Source of the DNA: Polytrichum commune
Lineage: Eukaryota > Streptophyta > Polytrichopsida > Polytrichales > Polytrichaceae
Direction of reading: 5' to 3'
Length of the DNA stretch: 64,000 nucleotides
Assembly (NCBI GenBank): GCA_950295325.1
Contig: OX485809.1
Location: 6,386,001-6,450,000, forward strand
Position 1 is the stretch's first letter. Each line of letters starts with the position of its first letter. A model generated the notes under the pieces. It searched no databases. It was not told the DNA's origin and saw only the letters and a program-made list of their open reading frames with translations. The position numbers were made by a program, and so were the translations under genes. Of this stretch, positions 320 through 39,876 are shown one piece after another.

Positions 320-3300
320 CTTTGGGGTACCAATGGCAGATGCAGTTCGTTTCTTCAATCGGGAAAATGCTTCTTGCACATCCTCAACTTCAATATAGAA
401 TAGTCTTTGTAGCTCCTTTACTGAAATTTTTTCCTTGGGTTTCTCGGTGTGCTCATCATTTTCTGTTAACCCAACAGAACATTGTAAAAACCACACCAAA
501 GCAAGTTCAAGAATGATACAGGTTTTTGGATATTTACTGTGCAAGTAACTGCAAGCCATTTCAACCTGGATTTGACAGATGTTCCATATTTCCACATCTG
601 GGTAAAAGAAATTATTCCCCAATGAAGCTTTGATGTTTATTAATAGCTATTCCTAATTTTGGTTGTTACAAACTTGAAGCCCAACTTGGTAAAAATGGAA
701 TTTGGAAGCCCTTAGGTTTCCAATATAAAAAAGTACAACAGCTATTGAATACTAGCAACCTAAGGAGACAGGTAATTTTAGCAGAACTTTGCCACTTTCA
801 GTATATATAACCTCCATAATTTCAGGTAGAATCACAAATATCCATATATGTAGAAACTAAATCATATTGTAGCATTCAATGAATTTGGGAACAGTCAATA
901 TAGTAGACACAAACTTTGGTTCAACTGAGACCACCCACTTGATCATAAGCTCAAGATATAAAAACTGAGAAGGCGTGAAACTTCTTAATATCCACATTTT
1001 TGCACAACACAATCAAATAGTATTTGTTATCTAAATACTTTATAAGTAATGCATCTGTAAGCAACAATTAAGGAACAAGTAGGGAGAAGGAAATAGGAGA
1101 ATTTAAGACTATGTTACCATCAAGGATGACACTTTCCAACTGGGATGAAACATCACTGCCATCTTTTTCCTCCCCATCATCAACAAATTCGTAATATCCG
1201 GGTTCAGATTTGGTTTTTGTCATTGTTTTCACGATCCGGCTTATGGCATTGACTCCAGCATCAGCACTCAACGCCTTAAGGTCCCGTAGAGTTGATCCTG
1301 AGGTTTGAGATGCTACGGTATCTAGAAAAGATTTCAACTTCTCCTCCTGCATATATTTTTGATAAAGGTGAGTACCAAAAGTTGGCTTTTACTAGTATTG
1401 TATAACAAAAGAAGAAAAGACACCCACACTAATGCAAACTCATAGGGCATACAACAAGACATTGAGTACAAATAGAATATAACGCATATATGTATAACCT
1501 AATCAATATGCAACCAGGAATGACAAATAATCTGTTGAAATATATTGAAAATAACTTGAAGAGAAAGGACTTGAAAATATAGCCAGAATCAATAGCAATC
1601 AATGAGCAGATCCAAGTAAGAATCATACTCATTAACATCGAATTTTTTTCTCGAAACGTTTTGCCTTGTTTGCTATCCATATTCTTTTCAAAACAGGACA
1701 GGCTTGTTTTTATCAAATACTGTATGATGCAGGCACCACAATGAATATATTGACCTTGTGTACTCTGAATCACTTTAAGGTAGACAGGTCCTAAATCATC
1801 AATTTTTCTTGTTTGCTATGAAATACGAATCCAATTCGTGACCTCTAAATTCTGGCCAATCCACAAATGTGGATGGAGAAGCCAGGTTCAAGTGCAGAGA
1901 AATTTGGGGCCAGCCTTGAAATGATATGAATTTCCAAAGGTGACAGCCAGGGACTCATAACTCAGTCACATAGCGCCCCCCCCCCCCCCAATTATGTTGA
2001 CCATTAAGTCCAGAATGGTTAACAAAATTTGTGCACATAGTCTAATCTCTTTAGAACACATGTCTTTTTGGTGACCAGTTTCAGATCCACACCTAACCGA
2101 ACACCACCCAAATAAGGTTACCATCTAAACATGTAACCAACTTAGGCCTGCTTACCTCAGAAATGCATCTACAAAAGTATGAAATATTGAACTAGACTAT
2201 CCCTTTTGTGACTTGGAAGGAGGAGATTACAATTAATCAGAGAAAAGGCTCAGACCTTAATTTTAATTGTTCCATCACCAGCTCCGGACTCGAGAAAAGC
2301 TCGTCTGGGTGTAAATCCAAGGAAGTGATGAAGCAATTTGACACGCCGAGCTTCATCAGGACCCTCAACTTCAATTGTGTGAGTGAAGTAGCGGCGGAGG
2401 GTAGGTTTTAGGTCTTCCAAATTCTCCACCGCCGCTGCAAGTAATACCAGGCCTGGTGTTGGTCCCCTGTTCCTAACCTCAAGCTGCGCCAAAAGGTCAA
2501 AGTCAGACATACTAATTTCCAATTACGAATCTGTTAGACAGACTTTTGTTTCATAACCGCAGTTATGAATGAACTATAAGAGCAATAATTGGTGGTCCCT
2601 CATCTCTGTTATCAATCTCAATTTTCCCTATTCATTTATTCTTATAGTCATTTAACTAAAAACTTCCCTCCTAAGACGATACCTTAATAGAATGCGCCTG
2701 ATGACATCATATTAAAGTCTACTTTGACTTTTGAAATTAGAGGTTTCCACAACTAAAAGGGTATTAACAACAACATTTAGTTTAAAAATTTCTCTGTAGT
2801 GGATATCCATAATGGTTGGTTCTAAAATTTTTGAGGACCATAGATACATGTAGTCCATAACCTTGAGATAACCGACCACAACATAACCAGCCAACACTGG
2901 CATATACCTTGCTCATTCTTTGGTCCTCTTTTTCCTGAACGTCCCCTATTTCAAAGTCATCATCATCTTCTTCCTCTTCATCTTCAATTTCTTGGTTCAA
3001 GTGAGCCTGTATTCCATCTCGCAGTGCATTTCCTATCAAAGAAACATTTTTTGACTGGTCTTGACCTCCACCTGCTAAAGACTTCATCAAAGCTCCAAAC
3101 CGCCGCAACAAAAGCACAGCCGGAGAATACCTTCTCACAAATACAAGTGAACCTACCTTCTCAGTAACTGAGATTAGAACATTTGCAAAACAGTCATAGT
3201 TTTCTTGTAGCACTAATAAGACCATCCTGAACAGAATTTAATGTAAAATCTTCATTCCTGACCTGCTAATAATAACAACCAGATAGGCTCCAAGGCTTTG

Positions 3301-6300
3301 GTGAACTTTAAGTAAGCCTCCAAAATACTGACAATTCCAGCTATAGGTAAACACTGTCGTACAATCAGTTACTGCAATGATGTGGTTGAGCCACTTATCC
3401 TACTACCCTACGCCACAAAATCCCATGTGTCACCTCAGAAATATTAGCATTTTGAAACTCCTTATCACCTACATGTAATCATACAAACCAGGGACAATAC
3501 GAACATGCTGCGAGATAAGTTTATGTGTAAGTGTTTACTTGTTCTTAATATGTCAATCTGTCTCACACAACTGTTCCAACCAGGAACTTTTAGCATTTGA
3601 TATAAGAAATATATTAATTGTACAATATTGAACTCGAAGCAATGAAGGTCATAGATTTTTACTTGCGAGCAGTTTTGAATGCTGCAGCTACAGCTGCAGC
3701 AGTTTTGCTCTCAGAGGTTTTGAGAAGTTCGTAACAATTATATTCCACCACATGCAGACCTAGGTCTTCAGCAGCCATTTTCACCACTGTACGCTTCCCA
3801 TGCCCTGCCCAGGGTTAACTATAGTGCATTAGCACAAAGATATCACGACAATTTATTCACATACTGGACAGTCCAGATAAAATTTCAGCAATAGGATAGT
3901 GTGATGCATTCCTGATCTCTTTGGAGCATACAGAATGTTTCCCCGTTCGCACAAAAATACATACAAGCTCACATAGATTCCTTTGTATTTTGCTGGGTAA
4001 ATTTCAGTTTAGTATGGTACTCACAAAAACTTGCCAGCTAATCACATACATAATAGGATGATCCTTTAACAGGACTTTTCATCAGGAGTTGGTCCCCTAT
4101 GATTTTCCTTTGCTTGTTTTGCATACGATATGATTAATTTCTTTCCATTTGTGATGGTGCATGCTCGGAGGTAGTGATTGAATCTAAATAAAGAGCAACC
4201 TATTCAGTTCATTAAGGGCCAAATTTGTTATAGCACCTCATTGCATGCCAAAATTAGTTTGACCCTCCCTTAACCGATATGGAATGTTCAAACCTTCAAA
4301 CCTTCACACTACCTCAGAACATGCACCAAAAACCTACAGAACATGGAAGGTGTTGTATGCAAAACAACCAACTCCCGACCAAAATTCCCATTGAATAAAA
4401 GGATAACTCTAACATATTCTAAATATAAGAGTACCAGAAAATCATTTAAACATCACATCAGCACCTCATGACTTGTTATTTACAAAGGACCTGACCATCA
4501 ACTTCATTGGTGATATTGAGGGTCAAACTCATTCTAGCATGCCAAGATATGCTAAATAAGTTTGACCTTCAATGACCAAAATAAGTTGCGCTTCATTCAA
4601 ATTCAAAGCATGCACCACAAATGGAAAGAAATTATTGCTTTTGTATGCAAACAACCAATAGGAAATAATAGGGGACCTACTCCTGACAAAAAGTCCCATT
4701 GAGTTAAAGGATAACTCTAGTGAGTGAAAAATCAATACAAACAGCACTGGGTGTGTGTGTTTGTGGCATTTCCAGAAACAGTGAAACAAACTGAAGCACT
4801 TTGTAAAAGGAATATACAATAAGAAAAGAATAGTCGTTTTGGAAGGACAAACCTGCACGTCCATGAAGTAGTAGAGCTGTGTGGAGTCTCAAAGGCAATG
4901 CTTGAGGATGTACACAGGGAGCCCAAATGGATGTCACCACATTCACTTCAGGTGGTATAGGAAATGGAACACAAGTTTTATACAAAGAGGAATTTCTTGC
5001 ACCCACAAATTTGCGGAAACCCAAAACTGGTGGTGGAAGTTGTGCCTGTTCAGAGCCCCCAAGTACAAGAGCTGTTTTATGTCGATTGACATGTGAGGCA
5101 ATCGATGTCGAGGGCTCAACTGCTAACACCTACTGGAAACAAAATGATTAAATTATTAGCTGAACACAAAATTTGACTCTACTGTTGATGAGCAACTACA
5201 AGTTGAAAATTAACAAAAAGAGTACATGCACATTCAAAATATGTATATACAAAAAACTGAGTGACATAATGCCTGCCAGGATGAAGAGCTTTGAAATCTC
5301 TGCATCCACAAGGAGAAACCCCCTCCACTTTACTTCAGACCTGAGTATTTTTCCATAAAATTCAGAAGAGCTGTACCTTGAAGGAAACCCTCCCTCAAAA
5401 AATATGTAGAATATATCAATAAGACACGAATTCTCTGGAAAAAAATTACTTCAAGAAATTTAAAAGAAATGGGAGCGGGAAACACATTCTATAAGCTCAC
5501 ATAGGCTTCCTATCAACTTCAGCATGCTCCAATTAAAAATTTGCAAATATGGTTAGATTTTCACTTTGTTCCATGCATGCTGAGAACTAAGGTATACGGG
5601 CCTCAGTTACTTTTCTTCATGAAATAATTATTTTTGAGTGGTATGTGGTTAAGCGTGGATCTAAGGACCGACACCAAATAGACATGTATTCAAGAAAGAT
5701 TGGAATACATGCTCAAATTTGTTAACCATTCTAGGCTCAATAGTCAACATAATTGGGGGGGGGGCACCTATATGGCCATCTAATGAGCTCAAGAATCCTC
5801 ACTTTGATAATGAATATTATATTCATATGAGCTCCGAAATTTATGAGAATGGCTGCAGCCACGACTTGGATTGGTCAATCATCTTGCACTTATCACATTT
5901 TCATATCATACAAGCAGTGGGTGCAGAGCTAAAAGTAGCCATTTAAGAGCAGCTTACTTTAGACAAAAATACTCTGTTCACCAGTCAAGGCTCCAAAACA
6001 ACTAATATAACTTATTATATCAAACCATGAAAAAAGGGAAGGGAAGCAAGTGAGGACCTTGAAATGGACAAGTTCATCGACTGGTACATGAAGGTCCCCA
6101 AAAGATGCATGCAATGCTGGGTGAACGGGTGGAATCCAAAGAGATAAAATGTCGCCTTCTGCCAACAATCTGTCAACTTCAAAATATTTTGCCAAAGCCT
6201 TGTCAATCCTCTCCTGCCGTTCCTTCTTCAACTGGTCCAAGTAATCCTTCCTGTTACTCAAATTCAGTGAGGCAGGAGTTCGTATATGGCCAATCCGAAC

Positions 6301-28741: not shown

Positions 28742-29332
28742 TCCCGGATACGCAACTCCTGTATCATATGACCTTGATTATAATCATTTATATTGCATTT
28801 TAGTCCAATATTGAGTGATAAAATTATTTTAATGTAGGAAACTCTTGTAGCCCTTCTAACAAGGAATCCAAAAATGTAATTATATATAGGAAATGAATAT
28901 TTCTTGAAGCATATATTTTCCTTAAAAGGCTAATTAAACAAGTTTTTTTAATACATGTTCCATAGGCCAAACTTCCCAACTATTTGGGCTTTCTTATAAA
29001 GATTTAAGATATTTTTTGTTAAAAATAAAACATTGCCAATGAGTTATAATTTTAATTGGAGGCAACCACTTGTGTGGATCTTTTAAAATTAGATGCTCTA
29101 CAAGGTTTTTAAAAGAAAGTATTTCAAAATTTTATATACTTTGTAGATTTTTTAAAAGAAAAAGAAAAGAAAATCCCAATTTTTTGACATCTCATTTTAT
29201 TTAATCGGTATTCACCCAAAATTTGTTGTCCTTTTATTTTTGTATAATTTTGTATAATTTTTTACAAAAGCTTTCCTCTAAACCATTTTGATGCCAATGG
29301 CCCTTGTGCATAATATGGGAGTTGCGTACCCG
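28742..29332. mobile_element. Candidate MITE with TCCCGGRTACGCAACTCC ends
   Basis: TCCCGGATACGCAACTCC at the left and, inverted, TCCCGGGTACGCAACTCC at the right: one mismatch in 18. The interior is very AT-rich and non-coding. Flanks GGAAGA and AGAAGA could be a short, imperfect target duplication. Confidence 0.6.
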
Positions 29333-30856: not shown

Positions 30857-32837
30857 CCTTCCACTTTGCGAGTAGTCAAAGGCTTCTAAACCCATTAGGA
30901 TATCTTCCATCCTCGCCGAATCTCTCAACACGGCCATCATTTTCCGCAAGAATTTTGATTGCCTCCTCATTAATATCCAAATGATCTCCCAATTGCTCCT
31001 CGCACTTCTCACCATTATCACACAAAGATGATTTGGAAGATTCGTCCATAACAACCCGCCGTAGGCCCTTCATTTCTCCCACTTTGATGCATCTCCAAAT
31101 CGTTTCCAACACTTGTGTCATCCTCCATGAATATCACATCTCTACTTTTTATGATCTTTTAAGTTCGTAGACACATTAGCATGTAGGCCTTAGTCCCCTC
31201 ATAATAACTTCAAAACAAACATTTTGTGCCCTTTGCATAGAGTTTACCATTTTGTTCATCTAACAATATTATGTATGCGATGCTCCCAAATACATGCATG
31301 TGTGCAATGCAAGGCCTCCTTCCACTCCATGCTTCCTCAGGCGTAATGAAATTCAACGCTCTTGTTGGACAATGGTTTCGTGTGGTAGCTGTATTAATTA
31401 CCGTTTTCGTCCAAAACGATTTGTCGAGGTTTTGATTATGAAGCATACTCTTTGCCATCTCCACGATGGTACGATTCGTATGCTCCGCCATTTCATTTTG
31501 TTAAGGCATATATAGGATACACGTTTGCTTATCGATACCACGATCCTTCAAAAAATGGTTGAATGCCTTAGAAGCAAATTTCCCGCCATTTCCGACCGAA
31601 ACATTTTGATTTTATGCTTTGATTATATTTCTATGAGTGCTTTGAACATATTGAACTCCTCAAAGAAATTTCCTTTAGATTTCAACACATACAATAATAC
31701 ATTTCTTAAAAAATTATTAACGAAAGTTACAAAATAACATGCACTGTCCATGTATGTAATCCTCATGGGGCCATACACGTTAGAATGCACAATTTCCAAA
31801 GGCTTGGGCGTTCGCCTCCCTTCCTCATTCGGAAACGCAAACCCTATGTTGTTTGTCTTCGATACACGATCCACAAAATAAGGAAGATGTGTGACAAGAA
31901 AATTTGCTAAGATTCATATCATTTACCATGTTTTGGAAGATATGAATACCTTTCATGTTCAAATGGCCAAGGTGGCGGTACCAAAATTGGAGCACGCCAT
32001 GTCTTGTTGGAAATGGCTCCAAGTTAGCTACTTCCGCTTCGTGCACCTTCACGAAATTGATTTCGTACACGTTGTGATCGCGATGACTTCACCATTGTAA
32101 GATTTAACAATGCATTTGTTTAGGTTGCATTGGACCTTCAAACCCTTCGATACAAATTTGCTCACCGAGAGCAAATTGGCATGCAATTTGGATACGTGAA
32201 ACACATTTTTTATACGAATTTGGTTGATTTTGTCTTCTAGGATTGCTTCCATGACAATGGATCCCATTCCGATAGCTTAGACAACGCTATTATCACGTAA
32301 ATGCATATTGCGTGGAGTGATTATCTCATACGTGTCAAATGCGACCTAATGCAAAGTTATGTGCTTGGAGGCATCCAAATTTATGATCCACTTGCACATG
32401 CTCTTGGAATGTACTTCATTACGTATTACAAATGCGTGGTCATCATCGTTCTTTACATTCTTCATTTGTTCAAGCTCCTTGTTCTTTGTTTTGTAGCAAA
32501 AATACGCAATGTGGCCCAGTTTGCTACAATAAAAATATAATTTTGTATTTTAGTGCGAAAATTAGTTGTATCATTTGCCTTGTCACAACATCATGGCGGC
32601 ATCCTCACCTCGAGGTTTTTTTTCCTTGCATTTCGACATCATGAGCATCAAACGCGTTGTTACGTAGTCCATTATAAGTTCCTTCATTGGCATCGTCTTA
32701 TAACAGTGATCAAATATTCGAATGACGCCGGCCAACTCTCAAGCAAGGTCATGACAATGTTTTCATTTCTCACGGATACCTCTAAACAAGCGAGTTGATC
32801 CGCGAGCATTTTGACCTTGTTGACGAGGTCTAACAAG

Positions 32838-33052
32838 CAGAGCCGAACATTGGGTGCCCATGCCCATGCCCACCCATGCCCATGCCCACCCATGCCCATG
32901 CCCACCCATGCCCATGGGTTTTGGGTGGGCATGGGTGCGATATTATGTTCATGGGCGGGCATGGGTGGGCGTGGGTGCGATATTATGTTCATGGGCGGGC
33001 ATGGGTGGGCGTGGGTGCGATATTATTGTTCATGGGTGGGCATGGGCTATAG
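32838..33052. repeat. hAT left terminus with subterminal repeats
   Basis: After the terminal repeat the sequence iterates CCCATGCCCA and CCCATGCCCACCC. It then inverts to GGGTGGGCATGGG, with three copies of a roughly 52-bp unit ending GTGCGATATTATGTTCATGG. Such clusters are the usual kind of hAT transposase binding site. Confidence 0.8.
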
Positions 33053-33150
33053 CAAAGCATATTGAATGAGCTCTCATTCAAATGCTTTCGACGGTTGCAT
33101 GGAGGACCGGACTGTGTTACATGCTGGATTACTCTACTAACCCCTTATGA

Positions 33151-34434
33151 CGGCATGATGCTGAAACTGCCATCTGTGTCAGGAATGATTTCCTGGCAGT
33201 CATGAATCATGAGATGCACACACCAGTGCATGCAATTATTGCTTTATCTTCTCTTCTTCAAGAAACAGAGTTGACACCTGAACAACGTTCTATGGTAGAT
33301 ACCATACTTAAAAGCAGCAATCTGCTAGCAACGCTGATCAATGATGTGTTGGACCTCTCTCGGTTGGAAGATGGGAGTTTGGAGCTAGAAACTCGCACTT
33401 TCATCCTTCCTGGTGTGTTCAAGGAGGCATGTTGCAAATGATCTTCTTCAGTTTGACTGTGTCCCACTCATCTAAAATTGCACCTTGCCACATGGTTGAA
33501 GGGAACATGGAGGATCTGGCATGGATAATCTGAATACAATCTAGGAAAGGATTTAGCAGTTGAATCTCTACAGTAAGTCATTTGCTTTCAATGCTTGTTG
33601 AGGAGTATATCATATATGGTGGGTTATTTATTATTCATTCTTTTATGTTTATTGGTACAGGTTATGAAATTGGTCTCACCTATTGCTTCAGTGAAGAAGC
33701 TGAAATCAAAATTGATTCTTGCACCGGACCTCCCTGAGCATGTGGTTGGTGATGAGAAGAGGCTTATGCAAACTATTCTCAATGTGGTTGGAAATGCAGT
33801 GAAGTTTACCAAAGAAGGGGTTGTGATGGTGTGAGTTTATGTTAACAAAAATGATATGCAGTTGGATCCTCGTGTGCCAAATTTTATTCCAACACAGGAT
33901 GAGCATCACTGCAACATCAGAGTTGAGGTACAGATTCAAGTATAAGTTGTGTATGTAATTTTTATTTCAGTAAACCTTGAAGCACCCTTGTGATTGGTAG
34001 GGTAGTTTGATAATTCATGTCAGGCATTGAGGTACTGCAGTTGTATAATCATACGTTGAGGCGCTTATACACACGATGAGAGTAGTGGTGTGTATAGTTG
34101 AGTCAAAGGTCATGTATTCCTGGCTTGGGTTGGTTTAAAGTACATGTGGTCAATGGGTGAAGGTTGCAGTTGATAACTGAGCCATTATTGCTTAGTCAGT
34201 ATTCTCTTTGTACATTTGTATGTACTTTTTGGTTGAGGTTTCTCTGTGGAAGGACTTCCAACACAATCTGGTTCATATGTGGAAAATACACACCCTTTCT
34301 TGCCAGAAATATACTAGGCTTTTTGTTAACATTTCCAACCTGTATGGCAGGTGAGAGATACTGGAGTAGGTTTGAATCTACAAGAGATTCCAAAGCTATT
34401 CAATAAGTTTCTTCAGGCCGTTTACAGGAAAATC
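33151..34434 (+). pseudogene. Ethylene receptor (ETR/ERS) histidine-kinase fragment captured in hAT
   Basis: Three exon pieces match plant ethylene receptors. 33,151-33,426 carries the HisKA region ([46 protein letters not shown]). 33,661-33,927 carries the start of the ATPase domain ([39 protein letters not shown]). 34,351-34,434 carries VRDTGVGL and IPKLFNKF. Retained introns show capture of genomic DNA rather than a cDNA. The phospho-acceptor His is kept, but the usual R of HEMRTP is H. An in-frame TGA (33,833) follows EGVVMV. The first intron would use a GC donor. Sensor and receiver domains are absent. Confidence 0.88.
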
Positions 34435-34785
34435 TAAGCCCATCAGGAGTCTCAATCAAGAAGTAGGTCACATATACAATGGCGGATACATACATGCTTG
34501 GCAATGTATGATGAGAATCTGAGACTTATTCTTGAATTATTTTGAGACATACGAATTCTTGAAGATTCTTCGAACTCGCTTTTTGAGTGAATGGATATGT
34601 CCAGGATAACTTACATCGAGAAGAGCTTTAATAAGTTAGCAGTGCATTCTACGTATTCAAAGTATTTTTGAATCTCATGGTTTATTTGCCTTTGATCTTC
34701 CAGCATTTGAGCCCATCTGAGGCAAATCTTATTGAGGCAAAGCACAAATTTAACGCCCACAAGTGAGTGACTAGGGCTTATTGAG

Positions 34786-36867
34786 ATGGTGCCATCTAGC
34801 TCTAGTTCGCTAAATGCACAAGTGATCGAGAAGGAATTAAAGAAGACATTGCCGAATGACGCCGATCGTGTATTTTCATTGCGCAAGAACCATGCTGGTC
34901 TGAATTCTACTCTTTGGAAAACTTTTGGCATCGTGCAACAATATGGTAAGGACTGTGAATATGCAACGTGCTTCAATTGCAAGAAAGTATACACATTCAA
35001 GAAAACCATGGGTACTAGCACCATGAATGATCATAAGTGCCTTAAGGGTGAAAGATTGGAAAGTGGAGTAATGAATGTATTTACAACAAAGGGTGTCCCC
35101 ACCACACATGATAAAAAGAAGATGACGCTTGTTGCTGCCAACTTTTGCGCAATTGACCTCCGACCATTTGAATCAATAGCCGGACATGGTTTGAAAGGGC
35201 TTATTCAAACAACTTTGGACATCGGTGTCGCAAGCAATAAACGACTTATGGTTGATGACCTCTTGTGTCAACCAATTACTGCCAGACGCAATATAGAGAC
35301 CCGTGCGACGAAGGGGATCGCCATAGTGACAAAGTGTCTTCAAGAACACATTGATACCGACGTATCCATGGCAAACACCCTTGATCTATGGATAGATAGT
35401 ATCAAGAAGGTAACTTATATATCTGTCACGGCGCACTACATCGATGAAGAGTTTGTTTTGTTTGATTGAACATTGCATGTGAAGCCTGTTCGCGATGAGA
35501 GCCACACCGTTGTTATGGTTTTGGATGAATTCAAGGAAGTACTGGACATCTTCGGTATCAAGGATTTGGTGTTTGATAAAATCATTGTTGTGGCGGATTG
35601 TGGATCAAACATCATTGCTGAAGATGGCATTTCAAGCAAGTTTAACTTGTTAGGATGCATTGATCATAAAATTGCGAACTGTTTGACCTATGTATTCAAC
35701 AAGACTATGAAATAGGTTGATGGTAAGAAGACCAAGCCTTTTTATCGATACCTTGATGAGCCCAACATGGCAGTCCTATACTCTCTCATTGATGCATGTA
35801 AGAATTTGGTTGCATACTTTAAAAAATCAAATCTTCAATCAAAGTTGTCAAAGACATTGAAACAAGAGAATGCAACCAGATGGAACTCACTATATCATTG
35901 TCTGCTTAGTGTTTCTGAAATGCTAATTGAGGTGATCGATCTACTGAAGCAGAAGGATGCACTGCGGAAAATTGCCTCAATCTCAGAGACCTTTTTGAAA
36001 CACTTAATTGATTTATTGACACCATTTCAGAAGGCAACTCTTGATCTCGAACAATTCAAAGAGCCGACATTGCATAAGGTTGTATTTTGGGGATTTCAAT
36101 TGTTGAAGCATCTAAAACCTGTTATGAACGATGTGATTAATGACGATGGTACCGTCAAGACGAGCAAAGACTCCCCTCCGATCATAGCTTGTAAAGACCT
36201 TTTGACACCACTAGTGCAAGAGAAGATGGAGCTCGATGTGCTTCATGTTGTAGCAACACTTCTGGATCCCGTTATGAAGAACTATATGCGCAAGATGGAG
36301 GTTTCTGACGCTTTAGTTACTAAGGCGAAAACAAAATTGAGGGAGCTTATGCGCTCGATTGGCACAGGAGAGGTTTTAGCAAATTTGGATCATGAGAAAG
36401 ATGATGCACCGGCCCCACCACAAAAGAAACACCGTACTGTTGACCCGACGTCTATGTACGATGAGTTTGAGGATGAGTTAGAAGATAATCATGACAATGG
36501 GGCTAAGATCCTAGTTGTCAACAACCTCGACGCACGTATTGAGCTTGAGTTCAGTATGTATGAGACATACAAGGTCACTGATCTTGAAAAAAATGAGATC
36601 ATTGCAGCGGTCAGCTTAACATTGCCAGTGAAGCATGATACTACTGCTAAATTCAGTATTCTCTTGTGGTGGAAGTTGAAAGGAGCCCCCACATTCTCCA
36701 TCATGTCGCGCGTGGCGCCTTCGGTTTTATGCATCCCTGCATCCAGCTCCAAATCGGAGTCAAACTTCTCGGATGCAGGGAATACGCTAACCAAGAAGTG
36801 CTCCGCGCTGAAGCCAGCGACAATGAACAACCTTTTATTTGTCCGATCCAACCAAGACTTGGTGTAG
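34786..36867 (+). pseudogene. hAT transposase with two in-frame stops
   Basis: One frame of 694 codons is interrupted only by TGA at 35,467 and TAG at 35,713. The N-terminus has a BED-type zinc finger (CEYATCFNCKKVY with the later TMNDHKC). The middle has IIVVADCGSNI and ENATRWNSLYHCL, as in hAT RNase-H-like cores. The C-terminus has the hAT dimerisation region (LLWWKLKGAPTFSIMSRVA, IPASSSKSESNFSDAGN). Both stops can be explained by a single transition, TGG to TGA and CAG to TAG. The start at 34,786 is the first ATG ahead of the zinc finger. Confidence 0.88.
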
Positions 36868-36884
36868 GCGGGTTATATACATTA

Positions 36885-37105
36885 CACAATTTTTGAATAC
36901 TTGAGCACAATTTTTGAATATATGAGTGCAATTTTTGAATACATGGGCGTAATTTTTGAATACATTGGCACAATTTTTGAATATATGGGTGCAATTTTTG
37001 AATACATGGGTGCAATTTGAATAGCATGGGTGGGCATGGGTGGACATGGGTAGACACATTCATGCTATGGGTGAGCATGGGTGGGTGATGCAGCCCGTGG
37101 GTCGT
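36885..37105. repeat. Short tandem repeats and an internal copy of the hAT subterminal block
   Basis: 36,885-37,020 has six copies of a unit like ATTTTTGAATACATGGGTGC. 37,023-37,105 (ATGGGTGGGCATGGGTGGAC and onward to CATGCTATGGGTG) closely matches 39,372-39,450. Confidence 0.75.
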
Positions 37106-39371
37106 TCCCTTGCAATTTAGCTCAAGAAGACTCATGGTGAGACATCACGTAAATTTATATTCGCTTGAGAACTACCGTGCCTCATTAATATGTTCGGTCT
37201 CGAATTAATAATCACTCTCTTCTCCTTATGATATGAATATAATTATTGGAGTGAACACAATCTCATTATCTTAATTCTTACTCTCAATGTAAGGCATCAT
37301 TGATAATAAGAATCATTAGATTTAAAGAAAGCTTCAAGAGGTGTAACAATATCCTTGATAATAATATAGTGTTCAATAAATTGTATGAATCCTTAATGTT
37401 AGTAGTTTATAAACATTAATCACACAAATGATAGTAATCTTATAATGATGAAGAAGATCTAATATTCTTGAATCTTCATTTTTAAGCTCAAGTGTTACTA
37501 CTTATAATATTGTAACTTGACATGTATGCATATAGTAGTTATAATTTCGTGAACACATCATTGATTGTTTTACAATGTCACGTTTAACATTCAAAGTGTT
37601 TTAATGATAAGAATAATTATAACTCTCTTGAGGTTTATTCAAGAGAACGAACTCCTCTTTGATTGTTAATGACATCCAACAACTCACAAAGTATCTTAAG
37701 AGAAGAAGCACTTTTACTACAAAGTGTTTCTTGATGACGAGAAGATAAACCTATCTCTCTTGAGTTTTGCTCAAGAGAGAGAGAGATCTTCTCTTGAATA
37801 GATAATCCTTCAAATTGTAATGACATCTAACAACTCACAAAGAATCTTAAAGTAAGAAGCTTCAATAACAATTGTAGTAAGTAGATTATCTTATATCAAT
37901 ATTACTTCATTCATATGTATTCAAACTTTGATATGAATTAATGTCTTCATCATTCTTGTTAATCATAAGTTCAACAATCAATATGTAGTATAATATGTAT
38001 AATACTTATAAGTCAATTATGTAGTTTTCAATAATAAGCTCCTCCTCTTTTGAAGGAGTTGTAATCGTTAAGTTGTTTTGCTTAAATCATAACATGCATA
38101 TAATTCTTCAATCATTCAATCACATGTATATTTATAATTCCCTTTTGAGGAGATCAATGATAAGTTCCGCTTTGAGAGATAATCTTGTTTCCTTCACTCA
38201 AGTTGACAATCGCTTTCTCAATTCAATCTCTCTTAAAGTCCCATTGATTCTCCAATTTGTCTTGAGCGCTTTGATCTCACACTATCTTTTGAGTTCTTTC
38301 TCAAAAGAGTCTACTCAATCTACTCTACTCTCGGTTGCTCAATCACTTAAGCTACAAAGTACCATTGACGACTCGTACTTCAAATTGAGAGAGGTAGAAA
38401 GATCACACGCATTTGTAGAAAAGATAAGTGTATTGCAAAAGTTCCTCGAGAGGAGAGTTACAAAAGCTTCAAGTGATTCTTGACACTCAAATTTAAGATA
38501 ACTTCGTTGTGTAGAAAATGAGGTAATAGTCTCCTAATTTGCTTTCCTTATATAGTCTTCTCTTCCTAATCTAAAATCTACATTAAGAGTGGTTGTGATC
38601 TCCACTTTTCAAAATAACTATCTATCTTCAAAATATGTAGATGTTAACTAACTTAAACGGTTATAACCGTTTTACCATTTGAATGTTCAAGTCTCTAAGA
38701 TTCTACTATATCATTGTCGTGGCTACATTGTAATTCCTTTTGAGAATGCAATCAAGTCTTCACATTTGCTTGATTCCAATGATTTGTTTTTAAACATACT
38801 AGTAGAATCTACCTTTGTCATGTATGCTCATAATGCATCTTCTAATATCCCAACATTCCTAATATTCCATAATCATGTCTTTCAAAATATCCCCGATTCT
38901 CATATATACTTCATAATCATATCTCCTCAATAGTCATTTAATCCTCAAAAACCCATATTCCTATATGCTCCCTAATACTACTTATAATTGCTTTCATAAT
39001 TGTCTTCAAAACACTTACACTTAGATTAGTGGTATATAATCCTAGTCCTAATATACCACATAATGTCCTTCTATACCCTTATACTCCTCCTCTATAAGTC
39101 CTTACAAAAATTCCCCCTTTCTAATACTAAGTTCCCTTTGTTAAACGGCCGAGTACCTGTCACCATGGTAAGGGAGCCTAATACCACGCGTCTTCCTTGT
39201 GATGCCGTGGTAATGGACCCTATAGCCGTGGTTGTGCTCCTGTTGCCGTGGTTGAGAACCTCCGAGCTCTCTTCCGGGCCTCTCTCCATTTCGGTGATGA
39301 TCTTCTTCCTCTTGGTGATGCTTGATGCCTTTGGGTGTTTCATTTCCCTCTCATAATGTTGGTACTCAACA
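37106..39371. other. 2.3-kb segment of unknown origin inside the hAT element
   Basis: AT-rich, with two copies of a phrase around CATCCAACAACTCACAAAG and CATCTAACAACTCACAAAG (37,673 and 37,826). It is bracketed by two copies of the hAT subterminal block. Open frames (38,073-38,483 plus; 39,092-39,547 minus) have no recognisable domain. Perhaps a later insertion or captured non-coding DNA. Confidence 0.45.
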
Positions 39372-39497
39372 GTGGGCATGGGTGGACATGAGTGGACACA
39401 TGTCATGCTATGGGTGGGCATAGGTTGCTGCCGGGGTCGCTGCTGATGGTCATGGTTTGGGTATGGGTACAAATTCGAAGGGAAATGTTGGGCTCTT
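39372..39497. repeat. hAT right subterminal repeats and terminus
   Basis: GTGGGCATGGGTGGACATG repeats, then the inverted terminus AATGTTGGGCTCTT ending at 39,497, followed by the CTAACAAG target duplicate. Confidence 0.85.
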
Positions 39498-39876
39498 CTA
39501 ACAAGTTGTCGCCTTCTTGCATTTTGCACGTGAAAAACTTGCGGCAAGTGAGAATGATATTAGATAAATTATTTGTCTCGTGAATGTTACAAAGGGTCTT
39601 CTATGCTTTTGCAGGTCTTTTGCAACTCTTGATGGACGCAAATTGGTTGTCTACCAAGTTGAGGCCGATAATGAACATGGCCTTCTTGAATGATCTTTGG
39701 TATTCCTTCAACACTTTAGAATCCGCATTTGAAGGTGAAGGTTACTTGGATATGTCCACAATATCCCAAAGATCCATAGATACCAACAACGTTTCAATTT
39801 TGAGCTTTCAAAAATCGAATTTCCCTCCATTCAACTTGTCAATGATTTTAGCAGCCTTGCTTTCAAATGATGTCAT

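Follow-up and report, generated by a model that had tools for sequence, protein, structure and literature searches.

Passages of Benjak et al. (2008; PMC2528002) describe grapevine Hatvine-6, hAT transposons with a common transposase and ends and a variable region, often genic (introns and exons) together with non-genic host sequence, that is unique to one element or present in a few; 17 of these elements had potentially functional open reading frames. In maize, gene-fragment capture is called rare for hAT elements in the part of PMC3260210 drawn on here, where the hAT elements Ds2-22 and Ds-l4 are described as carrying gene pieces, introns included, that were copied from a different chromosome. 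According to sections of PMC8903248 on Pack-TYPE elements of maize and rice, Pack-hAT elements combine hAT ends and 8-bp duplications with captured pieces of genes. Extracts of PMC3538342 report a multicopy Pyrenophora hAT with a full-length transposase gene and a histone H3-like gene, and extracts of PMC8277862 report animal Pack-TIRs, including Pack-hAT-N8_XT, with breakpoints skewed inward and overlaps (median 2 bp) at at least 1 breakpoint in 67.6%, and with a multicopy class that template switching and subsequent transposition could explain. Here, we analyzed a hAT element in Polytrichum commune, located in a 64,000-nucleotide stretch of contig OX485809.1 (C7:6386001-6450000; hereafter the window, with positions counted from its first base), and searched the 408 Mb genome for its relatives. 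The element carries an intron-containing piece of an ETR1-type ethylene receptor gene, and we consider it very likely that a hAT captured 1.27 kb of host ETR1 DNA, then transposed, landed in a copia retrotransposon at this site, and decayed to a defective passenger.

The window element resembles Hatvine-6 in joining a transposase and ends to a variable host-derived region of introns and exons and differs from it in the plant and genes concerned, in the length of the duplication (9 bp in the Hatvine-6 passages cited), and in that parent, junctions, copies, and decay are traced here. It shares an intron-containing gene piece with Ds2-22 and Ds-l4; whereas Ds is non-autonomous in that report, the carriers described below have a transposase frame that is still colinear and was probably interrupted only recently. 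The hAT ends, 8-bp duplication, and captured gene piece are those of a Pack-hAT, but because transposase sequence is present, in the form of a broken 698-codon frame, the element falls outside the Pack-TYPE definition of non-autonomous elements without a transposase match. Like the Pyrenophora element, it joins a full-length transposase gene to host-type gene sequence in several copies, although its piece is partial, contains introns, and is decaying, and internal breakpoints with 2-bp overlaps are shared with the animal Pack-TIRs. The process is already known from Hatvine-6, Ds2-22, and Pack-hAT, and the ethylene-receptor hAT is a further traced example. An earlier note on this stretch had called such an element unusual, which agrees with the rarity stated in the maize paper and is tempered by the hAT captures already in print, including Hatvine-6 with its transposase. 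Our literature search returned no report joining an ethylene receptor, a transposon, and gene capture, although reports that are worded differently or lie beyond the collection searched may exist.

The element spans 32838-39497 (6,660 bp) and is bounded by the 8-bp target-site duplication CTAACAAG at 32830-32837 and 39498-39505, with further copies of this sequence at 28856 and 43052 and 2 in reverse orientation. Its left end reads CAGAGCCGAACATT and its right end, after reverse-complementing, AAGAGCCCAACATT, with 12 of 14 bases identical; both the short terminal inverted repeats (32838-32853 and 39482-39497) and the duplication length are as in hAT elements. All 3 related copia copies that were fetched (L048, L049, and L050) run through the site without the element, their matches to the left and right flanks overlapping by exactly 8 positions; they are 77.6-78.7% identical to the left flank of the window, and their 8 bp at the site deviate from CTAACAAG by at least 1 base. 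The 8-bp repeats, the ends, and the copia empty sites agree with the claim of the earlier note that duplication and near-identical ends define the element.

End pairs were identified in 21 of the 27 sequences inspected, the other 6 yielding no pair, and the 8-bp duplication was perfect in 20 of the 21. The remaining pair, with 6 mismatches, belongs to L043 and was a forced one, since the L043 stretch ends before the transposase. Two copies checked separately, the C5:19.12 Mb element and the C3 carrier, also had perfect duplications, so that the duplications of relatives, proposed earlier as a check on these ends, bear them out. Both ends carried CAGAGCCCAACATT in 17 of the 20 pairs with perfect duplications, the exceptions being the window element, L017, and L027. 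Seventeen short non-autonomous relatives of 478-703 bp (L018-L034) each had a perfect 8-bp duplication, which suggests that the family was active fairly recently.

The receptor piece occupies 33150-34418 (1,269 bp), in sense orientation upstream of the transposase. A genome search with 33100-34480 as the query, in which all 31 candidates were scored (34 matches), placed its parent on the same contig at C7:823174-824442, with 97.7% identity over 1,269 bases without gaps, covering exactly 33150-34418. The fragment of about 1.3 kb with exons and introns described in the earlier note is thus present and the parent that it proposed to look for has been located, with the limits given there (33151-34434) corrected to 33150-34418. 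In the parent locus (L011), exon 1 had Pfam matches to ETR1_N and GAF and exon 2 to HisKA, a receiver domain followed toward the end, and the best solved-structure match of exon 2 was ethylene response sensor 1 (ERS1; 4mt8, 5.3e-46); judged by this domain composition, the source gene is an ETR1-type ethylene receptor. Exon limits were assigned by us and then checked by frame and splice sites. The captured piece, on the + strand of the window, comprises the 3' part of exon 2 with the HisKA phospho-acceptor domain (33150-33426, equal to L011:3674-3950), an intron (33427-33660), exon 3 with the start of HATPase_c (33661-33927; the Pfam match is below the curated cut-off in both window and parent), a second intron (33928-34350), and the first 68 bp of exon 4 (34351-34418). 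Since the introns are retained, DNA was copied and not mRNA. In the window, GC replaces GT at the donor of the first intron and exon 3 contains 1 in-frame stop, and receptor function is not expected of a piece that spans only the phospho-acceptor domain and the start of the ATPase domain. Distant matches to the piece (70-80%) at C4:32737983-32738593, C4:32768808-32769041, and C7:788096-788337 perhaps represent paralogous receptor genes.

Besides the parent, the piece was found at 5 loci: the window, C5:25.98 Mb, C3:46.97-46.98 Mb, and 2 loci on C4. The C4 loci, L013 (C4:54391501-54397500) and L014 (C4:54437001-54443000), were counted as one insertion because each is an inverted copy of the other, with 99.98% identity across 5,955 bp. 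They lie about 40 kb apart with a receptor-carrying hAT in each, and the inverted duplication is either real or an effect of assembly. The left junction is identical in the window, C5, and C3 carriers and the right junction in the window, C5, C4, and C3 carriers, give or take single bases, and 3 different perfect duplications flank the window, C5 (ATGCAAAC), and C3 (CTAAGAAA) carriers. That carriers elsewhere have all surviving junctions in common argues for one capture followed by transposition, and by this comparison, the piece is one mobilized with its element, as in transduplicated terminal inverted repeat transposons, with the parent elsewhere. Relatives both with and without the receptor piece were found, as the earlier note had proposed to check. 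Differences from the parent numbered 29 of 1,269 bases in the window, 23 of 1,217 in C5, 25 of 1,151 in C4, and 32 of 1,262 in C3. In the alignment of the parent and the 4 copies, all copies differed alike from the parent at 5 sites (columns with letters in all 5 sequences and 1 alternative base), 12-15 sites were private to each copy, and 3 grouped 2 copies; the pattern is close to star-like and would fit one capture and then several transpositions.

These comparisons suggest a course of events in which a hAT would have taken up 1.27 kb of a host ETR1-type gene at the DNA level, the receptor piece taking the place of native DNA that had lain between left arm and transposase. The short relatives and L017 share native DNA right after the left arm, where the carriers hold the receptor piece, and the presence of native DNA at the same spot in relatives without the piece points to such a replacement. 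The most likely route would be template switching while a break within the element was mended. The loaded element would then have transposed to at least 3 sites, probably 4, with its transposase probably still open, and the window copy would have landed in the copia retrotransposon, later gained what is probably a solo long terminal repeat (LTR), and decayed. Each junction has a 2-bp overlap (AC and TG, the latter read from the C4 copy at the right junction, 34418-34420), and both junctions lie within internal hAT sequence. We judge that these features would fit template switching in break repair better than an origin in which 2 adjacent hAT elements moved as one, taking along the DNA that separated them. 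Such tandem fusion was put forward for Pack-CACTA, and the sections of PMC8903248 cited above apply it to Pack-hAT as well; it recurs in parts of the review PMC13317346 that name it alone for plants while leaving room for another mechanism. For the piece described here, it appears unlikely, as both junctions lie away from the element ends and, with matches of at least 40 bp considered, the window element and the 9-kb parent locus have nothing but the piece in common.

The hAT DNA ahead of the transposase start (34419-34785, + strand) is common to L017, a relative without the receptor piece, and is followed by the transposase frame (34786-36867, + strand). Taken from stop to stop (34771-36867), the window frame aligns colinearly and without a gap to the open 698-codon frame of L010 (C5:19.12 Mb; 693 codons from the first ATG). 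In the window, Pfam identified the hAT dimerization domain (PF05699, 2.7e-14) as well as DBD_Tnp_Hermes (6.2e-05); the L010 frame likewise has hAT dimerization and Hermes-type DNA-binding domains and matched the solved Hermes transposase at 5.1e-47. The window frame is interrupted by in-frame stops at codons 233 and 315 of 698 (35467-35469 and 35713-35715), so the full-length transposase frame reported in the earlier note holds for length, 698 codons, and not for openness, and the copy lacks the uninterrupted frame of an autonomous hAT. It is now a passenger that is defective and probably inert, movable only by transposase supplied in trans. The transposases of the other carriers are also broken, each differently (3 stops in C3, a frameshift in C5, and a stop and a frameshift in C4), and no shared stop was found among the 4 receptor-carrying insertions; as the stops are not shared, the common ancestor probably had an open transposase. 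The ratio of nonsynonymous to synonymous substitution rates (dN/dS), computed with our own Nei-Gojobori script with stop codons excluded and C4 left out, was 0.25-0.27 for the window, C3, and C5 frames against the open relative and 0.52-0.56 among the 3.

The remaining parts of the window element are its 2 ends and a later insertion. The left end, with its terminal inverted repeat and GC-rich subterminal repeats (32838-33149, + strand), is common to the short non-autonomous relatives. The right end comprises a subterminal region of 21-bp tandem repeats and then GGGTGG-type repeats (36888-37086, + strand) and resumes at 39372-39497 (+ strand), which includes the terminal inverted repeat. In between, 37087-39371 (2,285 bp, 34% of the present element length) starts with TG, ends with CA, and is flanked by the duplication GTGGG at 37082-37086 and 39372-39376; it is missing from the C5 and C3 carriers. 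Among the 40 of 343 candidates scored for this repeat, 37 of the 39 long matches elsewhere (itself excluded) start at its first base and 3 reach its last base, the others ending short of it, and 3 same-strand pairs of matches lie 15.7-16.9 kb apart, as for the LTRs of a large retroelement. The repeat is probably a solo LTR that was inserted later and does not belong to the original hAT; the earlier note, treating 32830-39505 as one element, had overlooked it and its own 5-bp duplication.

We also compared the decay of the receptor copies. Beyond the stop and the changed donor in the window, the C4 piece is damaged by truncation, deletion, and stops and the C3 piece by an insertion with stops. 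With the parent taken as the original, 46 distinct C-to-T/G-to-A sites were counted in the 4 copies, of which 27 were in CHG, 13 in CHH, and 6 in CG context. The CHG excess (27 of 46, against 108 of 524 parental G/C sites; odds ratio 7.0, Fisher p = 2.6e-9) fits deamination of CHG-methylated DNA and suggests that most of the receptor copies have been silenced, which says nothing on the parent. CHG enrichment as a family-wide feature was rejected, being weak in the CAS-like piece of some relatives described below (p = 0.04), undetected when the NDR piece of another was tested, and unseen in the C5 receptor copy, where just 1 of 7 private C-to-T/G-to-A changes is in CHG context.

These limits on the CHG signal are among several points that weigh against the reading of a single capture and a silenced, inert cargo. 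The exon parts of the C5 piece are open and its splice sites standard, and "inert" and "silenced" are least certain for that copy. At the 5 sites shared by all copies, the change may have occurred in the parent, which leaves the junctions as the main support for a single capture; of these, the C4 carrier lacks the left one, its left part and left end being lost. Chance could also yield the 2-bp overlaps, which are weak evidence for a repair mechanism.

A further possibility is that the captured piece acts, its transcripts giving small RNAs or a chimeric mRNA that would alter the parent ETR1. Exact matches to the parent locus for 726 of the 1,246 24-mers of the window piece, its sense position upstream of the transposase, and the still open exon parts and splice sites of the C5 carrier are consistent with such a role, but with the receptor exons damaged in 3 of the 4 carriers (window, C4, and C3), we regard it as quite unlikely. 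It is highly improbable that the receptor piece is a separate insertion into an existing hAT copy at this site, not mobilized by the element: the piece is sharply limited on both sides, but both junctions recur in the C5 and C3 carriers, whose duplications are different, and the right one in the C4 carrier, no duplication was seen flanking the piece in the junction letters, and the later insertion with its own boundaries, which the earlier note had named as the outcome that would undo its claim, is not what the carriers elsewhere display.

Capture in this family extends beyond the receptor gene. L017 (C7:34675501-34684500) contains, at 874-3988, host DNA from at least 2 loci, nested, plus repeats. 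Its stretches 874-1357, 3086-3237, and 3694-3988 are 88-95% identical to C6:7002593-7003706, which lies upstream of an exon of a cyclic-nucleotide-gated channel (CNGC), and are split by a piece of C1:61318287-61319267 (93-94%), which adjoins a GH17 glucanase exon; a high-copy repeat and DNA with 86% identity to C1:62.25 Mb also interrupt them. Both gene names come from exons beside the captured stretches and not from captured exons, and Pfam gave no match on the CNGC frame.

L037, L038, and L041 have in common a 1.79-kb piece with identical junctions, the probable source of which is C1:49272753-49274546, with 32 of 1,757 (L037), 32 of 1,765 (L038), and 37 of 1,787 (L041) aligned bases differing. 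We provisionally take the gene there to encode the thylakoid CAS protein, for which Pfam and solved structures gave no confirmation: the CAS-like exon and C-terminal part had no Pfam match, and solved structures returned nothing useful. A neighboring frame had a 14-3-3 Pfam match below the cut-off. C3:7339382-7339899 matches 518 bp of the piece at 98.8%, compared with 97.4% for the C1:49.27 Mb locus over the whole piece, and either locus may have donated this part; 2 stretches of the CAS-like piece also have many 72-80% matches elsewhere. The element at C5:19121909-19126955 (L036/L010; 5,047 bp), with the perfect duplication GCATGTAG and the open 698-codon frame, carries 1.17 kb from an NDR-family gene (C5:38509697-38510863, 96.6%) and is the best candidate found for an element still able to move with cargo. 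In the L043 region, which is 1,351 bases long, the first 757 bases match many places, including tandem arrays, and were rejected as a host gene.

By match and gene strand, all 5 identified host pieces (ETR1, the 5' regions of CNGC and GH17, CAS-like, and NDR-like) lie in sense with the transposase. The chance of this would be 1 in 32 if the pieces were independent, but CNGC and GH17 share one element, with gene strands taken from neighboring exons, and other stretches are unassigned. Gene pieces may repeatedly replace the DNA between left arm and transposase as an exchangeable host-derived 5' cassette, perhaps kept for promoter, leader, or splice signals that serve expression of the transposase, an idea that we consider very doubtful. 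The idea that each of the 18 relatives found by their left arm has its own gene in a fixed cargo slot was rejected, since L018-L034 are short with shared native DNA; L035, the 18th, has the same DNA after the arm, and its ends were not found. One family-wide set of cargo limits was likewise rejected, the limits of the CAS-like and NDR-like pieces differing from those of the ETR1 piece.

With parent, junctions, copies, and decay followed together, the window element provides a traced case of a hAT that moved with a piece of a host gene at a time when it probably had a working transposase of its own. Alongside grapevine Hatvine-6, it is a further instance in plants of a single hAT lineage gathering pieces of several host genes. 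The still-open element at C5:19.12 Mb would allow a direct test of capture and of its effect on transposase expression.

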